Source: a virus
DNA: 36,000 nt
Direction: 5' to 3' (one strand)
IMG/VR virus record: IMGVR_UViG_3300021960_008364
Span: 1 to 36,000 of that record
Part shown: positions 19,026 to 31,107 of the stretch, in pieces
Layout: each line of letters begins with the position of its first letter
Position numbering within the stretch: position 1 is the stretch's first letter
Notes under the pieces: generated by a model
What the model was told of the DNA's origin: nothing
Database searches by the model: none
What the model saw: the letters and a program-made list of their open reading frames with translations, nothing else
Program-made: the position numbers and the translations under genes

Positions 19026-19982
19026 ATGACACAAGTTGAAACCCTAAAACTTACATGGGTTCTAGCGCACGTTCCTTACGATCTATTCCTTCGTTCAGCT
19101 AATGCTTTTTCAAAGGCAGTTAGTGAGAAGACAAACGGTCGTATTGAAGTCGAAGTCCTAGGTAAGAATGAGTGGCAGGACAAATACAACGGTGGCAAAG
19201 AAATTGGCAACCGTGGTTTCCTAAAGCTAATGGAAGAAGGCAAAATTGGCATGACACAGACCTATTCAACAGTACTAGGTCTACTAAATGACGATTTCTA
19301 TTCACTAGATATGCCATTCCTATTTGAGAATCATGACCATGCGGCACGTGTTCTAGACGGTCCAGTAGGTGATTATCTACTAGACAGCCTAACAACAACA
19401 AGTGGTGCAAAAGGTCTAGCTTTCACATACTCAGGTGGTTATAAGATGATGGCTGTTAACAAAAACGTTCACAGCATTGCAGACCTAAAGGGTATGAAAG
19501 TACGTTGCGGTACAAGCCCAGTTTCCGAAGCAACATTCCGTGCAGTTGGTGCAGACACAGTGCCAATGGGCGTTGATGGTTTTGCTCAGTCAGTTGCAAT
19601 GGGCGAGTGCGAAGGCGGTGAAAACGTGTTCCCACGTTATTTCCGTTCAGCAGTCAACACCGTTACAGACACAGTTGCTGATACAGAGCATGCATTGTTC
19701 CTAACAAGCATCGTAATCAGCAATAAGATTTGGGAATCACTAAGCGCAGAAGACCAAGCAATCCTAGCAGAATCTGCTAAGATCGCCGCAGTTGAAGAGC
19801 GTAAAGAATCTCTAATCGACGGTGCTGCCGCTAAGTCACGTGCTCAAGAAGAAGGTATCCAAGTTATTGAATGGGCACCTGAAGCAGTTGAAGAATTTAA
19901 AGCCGCTGTTAGCTCAGTTTACACTGAGTTTGATGGCTACTTCAGCCGTGACCTAGTTAGTGAAATTAAAGCACAACGCTAA
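19026..19982 (+). CDS. TRAP-transporter solute-binding protein (DctP-like), no signal peptide
   Basis: 318 residues. Family pattern is clear: LAHVPYDLFLRSANAFSKAVSEKTNGRIEVEV, FYSLDMPFLF, Arg160 in LKGMKVRCG (the Arg that binds a carboxylate in this family) and GECEGGEN near 193-200. Normally the protein is periplasmic and delivers C4-dicarboxylates or other organic acids to DctQM. Here it begins MTQVETLKLTWVLAH with no signal peptide, and an in-frame stop at 19011-19013 rules out an upstream extension. DctQ and DctM are absent. AAGGAG precedes the ATG by 9 nt. It may be cytosolic, act as a ligand sink, or be part of the virion. The late-type box upstream supports late expression. Confidence 0.9.
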   Translation: MTQVETLKLTWVLAHVPYDLFLRSANAFSKAVSEKTNGRIEVEVLGKNEWQDKYNGGKEIGNRGFLKLMEEGKIGMTQTYSTVLGLLNDDFYSLDMPFLFENHDHAARVLDGPVGDYLLDSLTTTSGAKGLAFTYSGGYKMMAVNKNVHSIADLKGMKVRCGTSPVSEATFRAVGADTVPMGVDGFAQSVAMGECEGGENVFPRYFRSAVNTVTDTVADTEHALFLTSIVISNKIWESLSAEDQAILAESAKIAAVEERKESLIDGAAAKSRAQEEGIQVIEWAPEAVEEFKAAVSSVYTEFDGYFSRDLVSEIKAQR

Positions 19983-20049: not shown

Positions 20050-20967
20050 TTACTTAAACCAACCTTTAACAGTACCAATGAGCTTGTCAAATGTACCTGG
20101 CTCGTCTGTTTTCCAGTAGTACTCATAAACGTTGTTAACGTGACTGTCTACTACCTTAACATCGTCTGCGGTAATACCTGAGTTCTTTGTATCACTGAAT
20201 CCGTTAAATGCAATACCGTCTAAGAACTTGGTGTTCTTACCCGCATCTGCAACAGCCTTTGCCATTGCTGAATCTTCAGTGTTGGTATGAATCATCTGAA
20301 TGATTGGAAGTGTTGGAACCTTTAGTCCTGGCAGAGCGGCACCAATAAAGTTTTTAGCGGCTGGATCGTAATCGTATACACATTCAATCTTGCCTTCTTT
20401 AAGTGGGCTGTTAACTACACCAGCACCAATAATTCCATAGTCAACATCACCTGCTAGTACAGCGGCTAGCACTGTCTTTGAACCTGAGTACGGAACACCG
20501 ATCAACTTGCGCTTGCCACCATTTAAATCATCAAATAGACCTTTTGAAAGGATAACACTTGCAATACCAACTGTGGTATCTGTTTCACCAAATGTCTTGG
20601 TGCTACCTGGTAAACGACAGAACTTCAAATAGCTCTTGGTGATTAGTGAAGTGTTTTCTGCTGTGGCGTTGTAGTCACATCCAATACCTTTTGCAAGACT
20701 TGCAATACGCACGTCTGCGTTAAACACCATAACAGCGTTCTTTGTTGAGCTATACTTCTTGTCAGCGTCTGCACAACTTGAAGCCTGATAAAACTCAACG
20801 TTAAATTGATTCTGTTGCTTAAGAGCTTCTTCATAGCTTTTAGCAAAAACTGTAGCTGGGCTAGCTTTGTTACTAGGGTTAACTACTGTAATAGTATCCT
20901 TAGCAAATGCGGCTGTAGACACCAATGCCGCGGTTAACAACGCGGCAGTAAAAATAGATTTCTTCAT
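20050..20967 (-). CDS. Bug/TctC-like periplasmic solute-binding protein
   Basis: 305 residues from ATG 20967 (AAAGGAAACTTC then ATG). Residues 1-22 form a classic Sec signal peptide (MKKSIFTAALLTAALVSTAAFA), cleaved before KDT. The segment LIGVPYSGSKTVLAAVLAGDVDYGIIGAG matches the VPYxG...GxVD pattern of Bug/TctC proteins, which bind tricarboxylates or other small acids for tripartite tricarboxylate transporters. Two Cys pairs may form disulfides. It starts 14 nt after the TctA-like gene, the operon partner expected. Divergence is high, so the ligand cannot be named. Confidence 0.82.
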   Translation of the reverse strand: MKKSIFTAALLTAALVSTAAFAKDTITVVNPSNKASPATVFAKSYEEALKQQNQFNVEFYQASSCADADKKYSSTKNAVMVFNADVRIASLAKGIGCDYNATAENTSLITKSYLKFCRLPGSTKTFGETDTTVGIASVILSKGLFDDLNGGKRKLIGVPYSGSKTVLAAVLAGDVDYGIIGAGVVNSPLKEGKIECVYDYDPAAKNFIGAALPGLKVPTLPIIQMIHTNTEDSAMAKAVADAGKNTKFLDGIAFNGFSDTKNSGITADDVKVVDSHVNNVYEYYWKTDEPGTFDKLIGTVKGWFK

Positions 20968-20981
20968 GAAGTTTCCTTTGC

Positions 20982-22286
20982 TTAGAAATTGATTGCTACA
21001 AATTGCATTGTAGTCCAAATAAGTTTATCACCAAACATAGTTCCAAAAATAAACAGTATGGGATTAATTCTAAAGTATTTAAGCACAAAGCCAAAGGCAG
21101 TAAAAAAAAGTAATAGAATGGTATACAGCCATATGGGCGTTTCGTTTACACTCATATCTATTAGAACCATTGCACCAACGATTATGAATAAGAGATATGA
21201 ACTCTTGCTGTATAAGAATCTAACTATTGCTACATAGGTGTCAATGAAACGTGTGCTGAGCAAGAAATAAAATACTGTAGCGATACCAGCAATCAGTATC
21301 ACAACATCAAACACATTTAACTGCGGCACAAAATTACTGGCTTGTCCTACAAACTCTACAACGTCTACGTTCTTAACATCTAAGACTGTTGAAATAATCA
21401 GTGCGCTGGCTGTGATAGGCACTCCCATAGTAAAGAACGGCAACAGCATCATTACCACACCTGGGTTGTTTGCTGTTTCTGCTCCAACAATCTGTTGGAA
21501 CCGTCCTTTCTTTTTGTGAGCATGATATGCTAGAGCTGATGCTGTTTCTGCGGCTGGTCCTGGTACTAGACCACTAAACAATCCAATCACCGTACTCTTG
21601 GCAATAGTCCACCAACTAGCAGTCTTATCACGACGTGCTTCAAAGTGTTCACGTGTGATGTGTTCTAATTTCACACGGTCCATTACCAAATCTGGTATCA
21701 ACATCATGCTAGCAATCAACATAAAGAAGCTGGTGTTTTCAAAGAAGATTTGTATTTGATACCACCAAGGCGGAAGTGCAAAGTTATTCACAGGGCCTAA
21801 AAATGTTCCCAAGGCTAGTAGCAGTATTGCAATGACAGGTCTACGATCAGTGAACGCAAACAGTGCAATTACAATCGCAAACATACCAAGCACAAAGTTT
21901 ACACTAGCCAGCATGTTACTGTAGTCACTTAACCAATGATATGCTAACCAAACAACACCTAGTGCTACCATACCAGCAAACAAACTACCTTTAGCCGTGT
22001 GGTAGAGTAGGTAGTTGCGTTCAGTTAAACTCATACCTTTGAGGCTATTGATGTAGACCAAGGCACTGGCTTCGCCTGGTATGCCCAAGGTAATGGTGCT
22101 AACACTACCAAAGAACTGACTACCAATAGCGGCAGTAGCCCAAAACACTAATAAGAGTTCAGGTGTCCATACAGGGTGCAGTGCATAAACAACAAACCCT
22201 GCAAAATATATAGGAAATACGGAAAACAGTCCTAGGGCTATTCCAACAACTAGCCCTAGGAGACCCACCATTGCTAGTTCTAACAT
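20982..22286 (-). CDS. TctA-like permease of the tripartite tricarboxylate transporter family
   Basis: 434 residues from ATG 22286, slightly shorter than the ~500 typical of TctA. About ten or more hydrophobic spans. Both family signatures are present: GSVSTITLGIPGEASA (~60-75) and GLVPGPAAETASALAY (~239-254) followed by GAETANNPGVV and PFFTMGVPITASA. TctA is the large inner-membrane subunit moving citrate-like carboxylates with H+ or Na+. A Bug-like binding protein follows. The small TctB subunit is not seen in this window. No Shine-Dalgarno precedes the ATG; a promoter-like box ends 6 nt before it, suggesting a leaderless message. Confidence 0.9.
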   Translation of the reverse strand: MLELAMVGLLGLVVGIALGLFSVFPIYFAGFVVYALHPVWTPELLLVFWATAAIGSQFFGSVSTITLGIPGEASALVYINSLKGMSLTERNYLLYHTAKGSLFAGMVALGVVWLAYHWLSDYSNMLASVNFVLGMFAIVIALFAFTDRRPVIAILLLALGTFLGPVNNFALPPWWYQIQIFFENTSFFMLIASMMLIPDLVMDRVKLEHITREHFEARRDKTASWWTIAKSTVIGLFSGLVPGPAAETASALAYHAHKKKGRFQQIVGAETANNPGVVMMLLPFFTMGVPITASALIISTVLDVKNVDVVEFVGQASNFVPQLNVFDVVILIAGIATVFYFLLSTRFIDTYVAIVRFLYSKSSYLLFIIVGAMVLIDMSVNETPIWLYTILLLFFTAFGFVLKYFRINPILFIFGTMFGDKLIWTTMQFVAINF

Positions 22287-22292
22287 CAATGG

Positions 22293-27103: not shown

Positions 27104-29275
27104 TTACTTCTTTTTACTTACTGCTACTAATCTTGTATCATAACCGTCTGGTGTTATATCAGCTAGTTCTTTTTTTAATTCTTTGTCTAAATTATCTCTT
27201 TCTTCTTGGCTGTTTGCTTTTCTCATCATTTCTAGATATTCGTCAATTATTTTTTGTCTCAAATTTTCATCCGAGTACACTAGCCCTCTTGGATCGTTTT
27301 CTGGATCATAAGCAAAAAACTTGTTGTTTTCTCTGTCCCAGGCATATACATGAATACCAGGTTGTTTGCTTAACTTTTGCCACAGTATCTCACTTCCTTT
27401 GCTCTGATTATCATCACTTACAATATCATAACCTTTTTTCACAGCATAAGCATATAGCGGAACAGCAAGTCCTTTGCCTTGTATTTCAGGATCAAATTGA
27501 ACACTGCTGGTCCAAAAACCTTGATTTTTAGCCTGAGCAAAAGGAGAATCACGTTGTGTAAGTATTAACTCTCCCAGTGGTGCTTCGTCTTTCTTGATAA
27601 CAAACACATGATCTCCACCATCTGCTTCACTTTCTATAGATTTGTGTATATTATAATCGCCTAGTTTGCCAACCTTTTTTAATAGTTCATCATTATGATT
27701 CCAGTAGCGAACTTTACCCTTTGGAAAACCAGTCATGGATTGAATTTCTTTAATTTTCTTTTTGCCTGCCTTCATATTAGCACACCAATGATACATTTTT
27801 CCACGTTCACCGCTGTACTTTTTAGCTTTGGCTCGAAGATCAGCCACACTTCCTTTACAACTTGCGCCGGCACGTTTAACACGCCCTGGACGACTTTTAC
27901 CTTTTACCTTACCGTCGGCAAAGTTTTCTGCAAGGTTAGCAACCTCATCTGGAACCTTAAATGCCCACACAGTTGCTTGACCGTCTTGTGCCATCATAGC
28001 AGTAAGTCTTGTGTTACCGCCAATTAATTCTTTATAACCGTCGCTGTAAACAGCAACGATAGGCATTTCAATTATGCCTTTTTCAAGTTGTGCTAGAGCA
28101 CGTCTTTGTTTGTTTGGATCTAATGATTTAAAACTATCTGGATCTGCGGCATCTGTATTGTTAATATCTTTAGCACTTTTAATAGTAAATTCTTTACCCT
28201 TCTTGGCAAGTTTAATCCATGCCGCTTTCCCAATCTTTTGAAACTCTGGATAGCGTTCTGCTTCTTCCCATTCACTATTAAAATTTGGTTCTACAAATTT
28301 TTTACCATCAGCAACGGTTTCTTCTACAGGTTCTTGCATATGCTGTTTGATATTTTTAACCGTGCGCTCGAACTTGTGATCCTTGTGCTTAAATCCAACG
28401 CCGCCAGCGGCTTCCCATTTAGCAATGTTTTGTCCAAAGTCGTCAATTAGTATGTTTGGAGTGCCATCTGATTGTGTAGCATATTTTTCTTTATCATGTG
28501 TTATGATAACACGACTTGGGGGGAATACTTTTAGATACTTTTCGATCCATTCTCTTTTGTGAGGTTCTGAATTGGGATCATCGGGCAATGGAGCACTTAG
28601 TATACTATAACTGCCTTTTAGTTTTTTAATAAGTCCTAATAGCTTACCAGCATTTGGAGCAGGAGGAATATTCAACCAAAAATCTTTTGTATCACGTATT
28701 TTTTGCAATGCCGCAGGAATGTCCTTGCTATCAATTTCTCTCCAGTCTTTGCCAACCAGTTTTTTCCAACTGCCAAAAAAGTCTGCAAGCACACCATCCA
28801 TGTCTACAAACACTTGACTAGATTTTGATATGTCACTTAGTGCTTCTTCTAAGGTTTCAGTCTGACGTGGATAACGGATCATTGTTTCTCTAAAGCTAAA
28901 GTCTTTGTTGCGACCTTTGTTTGGTACAAAACCAAAACGCTTGTAGAACTTTTCAAGTCTACCTTTACTTCCACCAAACGCTGTATCAGGTGTTAGCGCA
29001 ATCATCTTTCCTTCGCTGTCTGCGATGTCAACAAGACGTTGCATAACCTGTGTGCCAATACCAAACCCACGCTCTTCTTTAGGCAGTACTATTTTGCTGA
29101 GAATGTAACCTGCTTGTGTATCATACAAGTCTAGGTCTAAACCTGGAAACTCTGCTTCTAAATCTGTAGACACAGATTCGCCGAGCTTGCCCCATAGCTT
29201 AGAAGCCATGTGTTTCTTAAACAACTTGTCTCGGTACTTGCTTCTTTCCGTTAGACTGTATTCACTGAATCTCAC
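27104..29275 (-). CDS. Multidomain fusion: GNAT, HAD nucleotidase-like, ParB-like, second GNAT-like
   Basis: 723 residues. Residues 1-137: GNAT acetyltransferase with the acetyl-CoA loop region EERGFGIGTQVMQRLV and EKFYKRFGF. Residues ~150-310: HAD fold of the 5'(3')-deoxyribonucleotidase kind, DMDGVLADF (Asp158, Asp160), SILSAP, and ILIDDFGQN. Residues ~400-445: ParB/Srx-like segment GGNTRLTAM. Residues ~455-510: a Lys/Arg-rich Cys-containing segment (GASCKGSVADLRAKAKKY). Residues ~550-640: second GNAT-like region (PEIQGKGLAVPLYAYAVKKG). Starts by ATGA overlap with the nuclease gene. A nucleotide- or nucleic-acid-modifying enzyme is possible; no single function can be stated. Confidence 0.82.
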   Translation of the reverse strand: MRFSEYSLTERSKYRDKLFKKHMASKLWGKLGESVSTDLEAEFPGLDLDLYDTQAGYILSKIVLPKEERGFGIGTQVMQRLVDIADSEGKMIALTPDTAFGGSKGRLEKFYKRFGFVPNKGRNKDFSFRETMIRYPRQTETLEEALSDISKSSQVFVDMDGVLADFFGSWKKLVGKDWREIDSKDIPAALQKIRDTKDFWLNIPPAPNAGKLLGLIKKLKGSYSILSAPLPDDPNSEPHKREWIEKYLKVFPPSRVIITHDKEKYATQSDGTPNILIDDFGQNIAKWEAAGGVGFKHKDHKFERTVKNIKQHMQEPVEETVADGKKFVEPNFNSEWEEAERYPEFQKIGKAAWIKLAKKGKEFTIKSAKDINNTDAADPDSFKSLDPNKQRRALAQLEKGIIEMPIVAVYSDGYKELIGGNTRLTAMMAQDGQATVWAFKVPDEVANLAENFADGKVKGKSRPGRVKRAGASCKGSVADLRAKAKKYSGERGKMYHWCANMKAGKKKIKEIQSMTGFPKGKVRYWNHNDELLKKVGKLGDYNIHKSIESEADGGDHVFVIKKDEAPLGELILTQRDSPFAQAKNQGFWTSSVQFDPEIQGKGLAVPLYAYAVKKGYDIVSDDNQSKGSEILWQKLSKQPGIHVYAWDRENNKFFAYDPENDPRGLVYSDENLRQKIIDEYLEMMRKANSQEERDNLDKELKKELADITPDGYDTRLVAVSKKK

Positions 29276-29718
29276 TTAACTAACCCTTGCTCCTGCAATA
29301 TTTCTCTATTCTTCATATGCTGTTCTTGAACTAGTTCTTTGTTTTGTCCGTGATATGCAACAGCATATCCTTCACGGATCATCAATTCGTTAATGGTAGT
29401 TTCTTGATCTCGCTTTGCATCATACACTTTGAACTTGCCAAGTATACGACCAAACTTACCTCTGGCGTCGTCGCCGTCACGGTCAACTATGGTCATAAGT
29501 GTTTGAGTTGAGCCTTTAGGTAAAAAGCTGGTTAAAAACTTCTTGCTTAATAGCCCAAACTTTTTCTCTTCTCGGTCTCGTGTTCTTGATTCTGGAGTAT
29601 CAATTCCGTGCAAACGCACACGTTGGTTTGAAAGGATCACGTCAAATCCTAGATCAATATCTACGTCAACTGTGTCGCCATCTATAATTTTTATGATTTT
29701 TGCTCGATATTCATACAT
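29272..29718 (-). CDS. Thermonuclease-like (staphylococcal nuclease family) nuclease
   Basis: 148 residues, one SNase domain. IIDGDTVDVDI supplies the Ca-binding aspartates (Asp13, Asp15), RVRLHGIDTPES gives Arg35, Asp40 and Glu43, and Arg91 in GKFGRILGKF fits the second catalytic arginine. No signal peptide. Probably degrades DNA or RNA in the host cytoplasm, or acts in nucleotide scavenging with the nucleotidase fusion directly downstream (4-nt overlap). A late-type box lies 26 bp upstream. Confidence 0.9.
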   Translation of the reverse strand: MYEYRAKIIKIIDGDTVDVDIDLGFDVILSNQRVRLHGIDTPESRTRDREEKKFGLLSKKFLTSFLPKGSTQTLMTIVDRDGDDARGKFGRILGKFKVYDAKRDQETTINELMIREGYAVAYHGQNKELVQEQHMKNREILQEQGLVK

Positions 29719-29757: not shown

Positions 29758-30354
29758 CTAGAGTGTACCTACTAGACTAGTATAATCATAGTTTGCCATG
29801 ATACCCCAACTTTGTGCCTGCCTTATATCGCTCGTATCTGCATCACGTACAACACGAAAAAAACTTGCGCCATTACGTAAATGAAACCTACTAACTGGGT
29901 CTTTGCGTGATTGCAAATACTTATTAACTTCGTCGTTGCTAGGCTTTTCGTCAAATACTTTTGTTAATGACGGAATAGGACTCATTGTTATAAAATGTTC
30001 AACTGTTGGAAATGCTTCTTTGATATAAGCAGCCGCACTCAGTATAAGCCAACCAGAACCATGTTTGGGAGATTCAATATGTGGGGTTTTAAAGACACTA
30101 TAAAAAATAGCAAATTTATGGTTGTCTGAGGCTGGCGTACTGTAAAATATCTGATCCATGGTGTCAGGTAATGTTGCTGTAAAAGCTACACATAAAACAT
30201 AGGTAGGATAATTATCTTCAATTTGAAAATAAATTTCTCTATCTTCAATACTGGTACGACGTTCATTCCATACTGTTGCTGGATGAACAGGATCAAATTT
30301 TAAGTTTTCTAGTAGGTCTCGATCAAAATCGGAATGGTTAGATCTGATTAGCAT
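29758..30354 (-). CDS. Malonyl-CoA decarboxylase-like catalytic domain
   Basis: 198 residues from ATG 30354 (one base after the upstream stop; an in-frame TTG at 30372 is less likely). It follows the C-terminal GNAT-fold domain of malonyl-CoA decarboxylase: PATVWNERRTSIEDREIYF, YVLCVAFTATLP, FAIFYSVF, a LSAAAYIKEAFPTVEHF helix, TMSPIPS with the catalytic-type Ser125, SRFHLRNGASFFRV with catalytic-type His158, and SWGIMANYDY. Full enzymes (~400-490 aa) carry an extra N-terminal helical domain, absent here. The reaction gives acetyl-CoA and CO2 from malonyl-CoA, which would lower fatty acid synthesis. Activity without the N-terminal domain is unproven. Confidence 0.85.
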   Translation of the reverse strand: MLIRSNHSDFDRDLLENLKFDPVHPATVWNERRTSIEDREIYFQIEDNYPTYVLCVAFTATLPDTMDQIFYSTPASDNHKFAIFYSVFKTPHIESPKHGSGWLILSAAAYIKEAFPTVEHFITMSPIPSLTKVFDEKPSNDEVNKYLQSRKDPVSRFHLRNGASFFRVVRDADTSDIRQAQSWGIMANYDYTSLVGTL

Positions 30355-30355
30355 T

Positions 30356-30520
30356 TTATAGTTCTTCTGCAATACCTAAAAATTCAGCCAAAGCAAAGAA
30401 CAGTGCGAGTAATACAACCGAACCTGTATATGCCCCAACTAAGCAACCTACTAAACGCAAGCCACTTTTAACAAGACTGATATAAAAATGTTTACGGCTT
30501 GGATCTACTGGTTCAGTCAT
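30356..30520 (-). CDS. Small membrane protein (54 aa)
   Basis: ATG 30520 overlaps the ClpP stop (ATGA), and its stop is one base from the MCD-like ATG. Begins MTEPVDPSRKHFYISLVKSG; hydrophobic span ~22-48 (LVGCLVGAYTGSVVLLALFFAL), ending AEEL. Tight coupling on both sides supports it being real. Function unknown; it may tether neighbours to the membrane. Confidence 0.75.
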   Translation of the reverse strand: MTEPVDPSRKHFYISLVKSGLRLVGCLVGAYTGSVVLLALFFALAEFLGIAEEL

Positions 30521-31107
30521 CGTTTTGTAATCACTTCGTCTGCGAGGCCATAGTCAACTGATGCTTGGGCATCCATAAAGTTATCACGTTCCGTGTCACG
30601 AGCAATCTCTTCAAATGTTTTGCCCTTGCTGTTGTGGTTAACATAGATCTGTGTTAGATAACGCTTCATCTCAATGATCTCTTTGACTTGGATTTCCATG
30701 TCTGTGGCTTGACCTCTAGCACCACCACTAGGCTGGTGAATCATGTGACGAGCATGTGGGAGAATAAAACGCTTGCCAGCGGCACCGGAACTTGCCAGCA
30801 AACTGCCCATTGAACAGGCTTGCCCCATTACAACGGTACGTATATCACATTTAATATACTGCATCACATCATAGATAGCCATGCCTGCTGTAACACTGCC
30901 ACCTGGACTATTGATGTAAAACAAAATTTCTGCGTCTGGGTCATCTGCTTCTAAAAACAAAAACTGTCCAACAAGTAGACTAGCAGTGTGTTCAGTAACT
31001 TCTGTATCTAGTAGTACAATTCTATCTTTGAGTAGGCGACTATATAGGTCGTAGCTACGTTCTCCATCACTGGTGCGTTCTAAAACAACAGGTACATAAT
31101 TAGGCAT
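30517..31107 (-). CDS. clpP: ClpP-type ATP-dependent protease subunit
   Basis: 196 residues, the usual ClpP size. Catalytic residues: Ser99 in GQACSMGSLL, His124 in HMIHQPSGG, Asp171 in ARDTERDNF. The N-terminal loop and SPGGSVTAGMAIYD are also conserved. ClpP forms a double heptamer that degrades proteins fed by ClpX or ClpA; no Clp ATPase is seen here, so it would use host unfoldases or mix with host subunits. It overlaps the radical SAM gene by 8 nt. ClpP-like genes occur in some large or marine phages. Complete and likely active. Confidence 0.95.
   Translation of the reverse strand: MPNYVPVVLERTSDGERSYDLYSRLLKDRIVLLDTEVTEHTASLLVGQFLFLEADDPDAEILFYINSPGGSVTAGMAIYDVMQYIKCDIRTVVMGQACSMGSLLASSGAAGKRFILPHARHMIHQPSGGARGQATDMEIQVKEIIEMKRYLTQIYVNHNSKGKTFEEIARDTERDNFMDAQASVDYGLADEVITKR

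Follow-up and report, generated by a model that had tools for sequence, protein, structure and literature searches.

Malonyl-CoA is the committed precursor from which fatty acids are built, and, to our knowledge, the handling of host membrane synthesis by lytic phages is poorly known. In human malonyl-CoA decarboxylase (MCD; MLYCD), Ser329 and His423 form the catalytic dyad, and the S329A exchange causes a 110-fold loss of kcat (Froese et al., PMC3701320). Among the other residue roles shown or proposed for catalysis by the human enzyme, Tyr456 holds His423 and Phe288 provides the surface beneath the carboxylate (PMC3701320). Characterised full-length MCDs also possess an N-terminal helical oligomerisation domain, which lies outside the Pfam family PF05292 (MCD C-terminal domain). 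A second set of described systems comprises the GNAT-like decarboxylases of polyketide synthases, CurA GNATL (2ree), GphF (6mfc), and SxtA (7uci), which decarboxylate malonyl-type thioesters with a His-Ser/Thr dyad; each is a compact single GNAT core forming part of a megasynthase. MCDs have an Asp where CurA has Arg404, and the catalytic Tyr of GNATs corresponds to the position of the MCD His, while the dyad Ser is a feature of MCD and CurA that GNATs lack (PMC3701320). In bacteria, canonical MCDs adjoin malonyl-CoA synthase and TRAP transporters, and the MatA/MatB malonate operons of Alphaproteobacteria contain a full-length MCD, MatA.

The DNA analysed here, referred to as the window, is a stretch of 36,000 nucleotides (positions 1 to 36,000 of the IMG/VR virus record IMGVR_UViG_3300021960_008364), whose DNA ligase, baseplate, and tail fibre genes are related to those of T4-like phages. 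The product of one of its genes belongs to the MCD catalytic-domain family, and membership is claimed for that family only. The gene and the codons of its putative active-site residues, assigned from alignments, are as follows.

29758..30354, minus strand: short (single-domain) MCD, 198 aa, ATG at 30354 (PF05292, AlphaFold2, VIA)
30103..30105, minus strand: Phe84 codon, equivalent of human Phe288
29980..29982, minus strand: Ser125 codon (AGT), equivalent of human Ser329
29881..29883, minus strand: His158 codon (CAT), equivalent of human His423
29836..29838, minus strand: Asp173 codon, Asp in MCDs and Arg404 in the CurA transferase/decarboxylase
29782..29784, minus strand: Tyr191 codon, equivalent of human Tyr456, the holder of the catalytic His

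An alternative TTG start at 30372 would extend the reading frame by 6 aa. The match to PF05292 was highly significant (E = 1.5e-21; 77.6 bits, cut-off 23.2), and a PDB sequence search with the window protein returned MCDs only (best 4ks9, 4e-12), supporting the sequence-only reading that had identified the gene as an MCD catalytic domain. That reading had also described the protein as following the domain from end to end. The match itself is real, but it is split in two (profile positions 17-150 and 211-252 of 253), leaving an internal gap of about 60 positions that correspond to the beta5-beta6 helical insert, and the C-terminal tail is lost. In the combined alignment with full-length enzymes, the short form lacks the C-terminal tail, about 40-60 residues of the insert, and, as had been claimed, the N-terminal helical domain, which is absent from all short members. 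NCBIfam yielded no family for the phage MCDs, but none for a canonical full-length MCD either, and is therefore uninformative here.

The catalytic-type Ser and His reported earlier are indeed kept, since S125 and H158 align with human Ser329 and His423. F84, S125, H158, D173, and Y191 are invariant in the alignment of short MCDs (29 of 29). The equivalents of F84, S125, H158, and Y191 are present in all eight full-length MCDs and that of D173 in seven of the eight, so that the dyad, the Phe288 and Tyr456 equivalents, and the conserved Asp are common to the phage and full-length forms. The pyrophosphate-loop motif varies among the phage proteins, as it does in MCDs.

The structure of the window protein was predicted by AlphaFold2 from an alignment of 29 short MCDs (pLDDT 95.6, pTM 0.91). 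The top 17 Foldseek matches in the PDB were all MCD chains. An overlay on human MCD, which had been proposed as a check, gave Z 21.2 over 194 residues at 2.7 A (VIA), and the superposition implies that Ser125 and His158 of the model would share one pocket. The VIA-align Z scores were 17.9-21.2 against MCD crystal structures (human MLYCD, R. palustris 4ksa, A. vitis 4ksf, and C. metallidurans 4ks9), which have the same GNAT-fold core, 16.5-17.6 against SxtA, CurA, and GphF, and at most 13.1 against GNAT acetyltransferases. The BFVD viral structures yielded no MCD-like match, only general GNATs at low TM. The fold alone does not establish function; the ordering of the Z scores, taken together with the active-site residues, argues for a decarboxylase.

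To determine the distribution of the short form, IMG/VR was scanned with a degenerate DNA pattern for DPVxxFHxxNGA. Of the 39 stretches found, 38 encode the short form, two of them being cut by a contig end, and one, L018, encodes a protein of 431 aa. Removal of near-copies, truncated ends, and L018 left the window and 27 other viral sequences; the window MCD thus has no fewer than 27 distinct relatives in other phages, most of them large. PF05292 matched 29 of 29 short members, and a Pfam GNAT match was found in none of them (E 0.001). Among the contigs carrying the short MCD are large ones of 238, 261, 355, and 364 kb that also encode a major capsid protein and a terminase of T4-like type. 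This minimal form of MCD, as yet without a name, is typical of phages. Like described phage auxiliary metabolic genes, it is a host-type metabolic enzyme under selection in tailed phages.

The sequence-only reading knew of no phage-borne MCD. This agrees with PHROGs, in which no MCD family was found, and with the openly licensed literature searched, in which MCD was never paired with auxiliary metabolic genes (which does not prove absence) and the two papers mentioning both MCD and phages had other subjects, judged by title. It also agrees, with one exception, with the INPHARED isolates: the five query proteins (L012, L021, and three from the window group) gave a single weak match there, a distant homologue in the Pelagibacter phage Mosig EXVC030M. 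This hypothetical protein of 161 aa (QOI69107.1; L050:4944-5429) scored 50.9 bits against the short-MCD profile, compared with at most 6.4 for 1000 shuffles. It resembles the short MCDs in keeping TLSP and FHIRNGA, and differs from them in the complete loss of the insert, a canonical GNAT loop (RKRGAG), and a Phe84 position that is not kept; it has no Pfam MCD match and a weak Pfam GNAT match. The 431-aa protein of L018 is a full-length MCD on a 15-kb contig (record G007) that is classed as viral and has a weak terminase-like match. It groups with alphaproteobacterial MCDs and was set aside as bacterial or proviral; the region may be bacterial DNA beside a provirus.

The surroundings of the window gene were examined through the following features. 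Neighbour families were named by eye, except ClpP, the nuclease, radical SAM, the nucleotidase, and the lipase.

30356..30520, minus strand: 54-aa ORF between ClpP and MCD, hydrophobic and probably transmembrane (by eye), no family match
30517..31107, minus strand: ClpP-like serine protease (PF00574, E = 4.4e-74), next to or near MCD in the window's phage group
31100..32206, minus strand: radical SAM/SPASM protein (PF13186, 1.1e-4, above cut-off; phrog_14086, 2.4e-20)
29272..29718, minus strand: staphylococcal-nuclease-like endonuclease (PF00565, 4.9e-13), downstream of MCD, in the same place in L001, L006, and L008
26019-26807: class 3 lipase (family match)

The 54-aa ORF overlaps the stop codon of ClpP, and a single base separates its end from the MCD start. 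The gene context is as the earlier reading had stated, with ClpP and radical SAM in a unit with MCD and the lipase in the next group; the ClpP and radical SAM genes overlap by 8 bp. PF04055 (6.8e-6) fell just under its cut-off for the radical SAM protein. In the window's phage group, the order of lipoproteins, radical SAM, ClpP, MCD, and nuclease is conserved in independent contigs. In a second group, MCD is followed by peroxiredoxin-like, SGNH-like, and AhpD-like ORFs, and in a third it lies near metallophosphatase-like and dCMP-deaminase-like ORFs. These several types of neighbourhood indicate that the MCD gene is not tied to a fixed partner. Radical SAM, ClpP, and the lipase were considered as functional partners and dropped, since they are absent from the other MCD-bearing phage groups; radical SAM and ClpP, conserved only in the window's group, say little about function. 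The minus strand at 27104-29275 encodes a 723-aa protein with GNAT acetyltransferase-like and 5'-nucleotidase-like domains joined to uncharacterised regions; these parts are differently arranged in related phages.

Phylogenetically, the short MCDs form one clade (support 100/100) on a long branch apart from the full-length enzymes. The dN/dS values of seven close pairs of short MCDs were 0.04-0.10, indicating strong purifying selection and a gene kept for its product. One member of the clade is bacterial. On one strand of L010, a Bacteroidetes contig, an MFS transporter and a MatB-like acyl-CoA ligase precede a short MCD of 190 aa; each of the five best PDB matches of the ligase is a malonyl-CoA synthetase or a chimera of one. 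The array resembles the MatA/MatB operons in its transporter, malonyl-CoA synthetase, and MCD, and differs in that MatA is full length. Because it adjoins a malonyl-CoA synthetase-like gene, the short MCD of L010 stands where an MCD is expected, which supports activity. L010 groups with two phage lineages (support 86/89), and the AU test with the phages held together gave p 0.205, a result compatible with a position of L010 outside the phages. Among the Bacteroidota genomes surveyed for the short form (395 of the phylum, 199 of the family), the only sound match was G002 itself, which indicates that the bacterial relative is rare; G284, from the same survey, contained one weak short-MCD fragment with stops. 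One tentative history, which we hold to be somewhat improbable as a whole, is that large aquatic phages descend from an ancestor that took up the gene once and kept it across deep lineages for takeover of the host, the enzyme emptying the malonyl-CoA pool so that the making of fatty acids and membrane stops and acetyl-CoA is returned; the phage form may then have passed to at least one bacterium, for malonate use.

We infer that the window protein likely decarboxylates malonyl-CoA. The protein would represent the catalytic core of MCD, with its GNAT fold but stripped of the oligomerisation domain, and would act on malonyl-CoA made by the host acetyl-CoA carboxylase. The Ser125/His158 dyad would hold the thioester, with Tyr191 bracing the His and the carboxylate placed over Phe84; CO2 would then be released via an enolate, leaving acetyl-CoA. 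The host carboxylase is the likely source of substrate because the phages almost lack an enzyme that activates malonate: a malonyl-CoA synthetase was found neither in the window nor in the phage records (20 viral records), and an AMP-binding ligase occurred in one of the 20, with a fatty acid ligase as its best match. Since the N-terminal domain, most of the insert, and the tail are missing, the oligomeric state and regulation must differ from those of full-length MCDs, and activity could be lower.

By depleting malonyl-CoA, the enzyme would slow the synthesis of fatty acids, or might halt it as the earlier reading supposed, and would give back acetyl-CoA. That the phage gains from such a drain, with host production of fatty acids and membrane slowed and acetyl-CoA recovered for making phage, is plausible, although we see the balance as tipping slightly against it; nothing in the neighbourhoods points directly to a shut-off of fatty acid synthesis, and a host carboxylase that is still active would create a futile, ATP-consuming cycle. 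Taking reaction and role together, the gene probably encodes a catalytically competent minimal MCD. If so, removal of malonyl-CoA by a conserved phage enzyme would offer a direct handle on the question of host membrane synthesis, and the protein would show, as a natural minimal MCD, that neither the helical domain nor the insert is needed. The assignment would also provide an annotation for a gene family, present in T4-like contigs of up to 364 kb, that is unnamed in the phage family libraries used. The results suggest phage control of host lipid supply by a route absent from the literature searched.

Several other readings were weighed against a minimal MCD. The protein could be a GNAT-like decarboxylase whose thioester substrate is not free malonyl-CoA but malonyl-ACP or a substituted malonyl-CoA; its product, acetyl-ACP or a starter unit, would then promote lipid or surface-glycan synthesis rather than halt it. 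The domains of CurA, GphF, and SxtA are its next-best structural matches, are similar in length, and likewise lack the MCD helical domain. An acyl carrier protein (ACP) is encoded by two of the closest large relatives (G003 and G587) and by G599, and a malonyl-ACP decarboxylase that promotes fatty acid synthesis is established in the unrelated hot-dog enzymes MadA/MadB (PMC8666670). However, the window protein is nearer to MCD than to the CurA-type domains in both sequence and fold, the identity to the latter being 12-14%. The Thr and Arg404 of CurA, the latter tied to the acetyl transfer that CurA performs as well, correspond in the phage proteins to Ser and to an Asp at position 173, as in MCDs. 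ACP genes are absent from most records, including those of 261-364 kb, and the ACP gene of G003 is far from MCD, near tail-fibre-like and glycosyltransferase-like ORFs. We therefore regard this reading as unlikely. We think the same of carbon scavenging, in which phage importers would take up malonate or other dicarboxylates, host MatB would form malonyl-CoA, and MCD would convert it to acetyl-CoA as fuel. This reading draws on the first two of the following features of the window.

20982-22289, minus strand: TctA-family permease (PF01970, 2.4e-33)
19026-19982, plus strand: DctP-like TRAP binding protein (PF03480, 4.7e-50), start apparently without a signal peptide
20050-20967, minus strand: secreted protein with a signal-peptide-like start, adjoining TctA and conserved in L006 and L008

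TctA also occurs in G003, G587, G588, and G590, and the joint occurrence of MCD, TRAP transporters, and malonyl-CoA synthase in bacterial operons fits such a pathway. Against it, the synthetase was not found in the phages (20 viral records), TctA is absent from the other MCD-bearing phage groups tested, and the DctP-like protein seems to lack a signal peptide. Considerably less probable than either is a GNAT acyltransferase that resembles MCD but transfers acyl groups to a protein or a metabolite. The window protein has the fold of GNATs, which phages commonly encode, and the distant Mosig relative combines a canonical GNAT loop with a weak GNAT match. The fold similarity is nevertheless greater to MCD than to GNAT acetyltransferases, Pfam GNAT matched 0 of 29 members, and all members have His158 at the position of the GNAT catalytic Tyr along with a dyad Ser that is foreign to GNATs (PMC3701320). 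Finally, the window protein is much shorter than bacterial MCDs, as would be expected of a recently captured or decaying bacterial fragment or a mis-assembled contig. This explanation is refuted by the recurrence of the short form, without stops, in 27 or more further distinct viral sequences, by the purifying selection acting on it, by its separate clade, and by the gene order kept in independent contigs; we assign it a negligible probability. A minimal MCD is thus the reading that we retain.

Some further observations concern the transport and acyl-metabolism genes of these phages. The 20050-20967 protein, which had no Pfam, PHROG, NCBIfam, or PDB match, is possibly the binding protein of the TctA permease. 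TctA is present in two copies in G587 and in G588, and tctA is among the phage genes listed in a review (PMC6359870). ACP genes of the phage records are located at L066:5277-6306 and L065:6320-6574, the former following a desaturase-like ORF (fatty acid; by eye). In the short-MCD phage record G595, an acyl-CoA ligase, an SDR reductase, and a third gene are adjacent (L067:7215-10380); by eye, the third resembles the beta-keto acid cleavage enzyme family.
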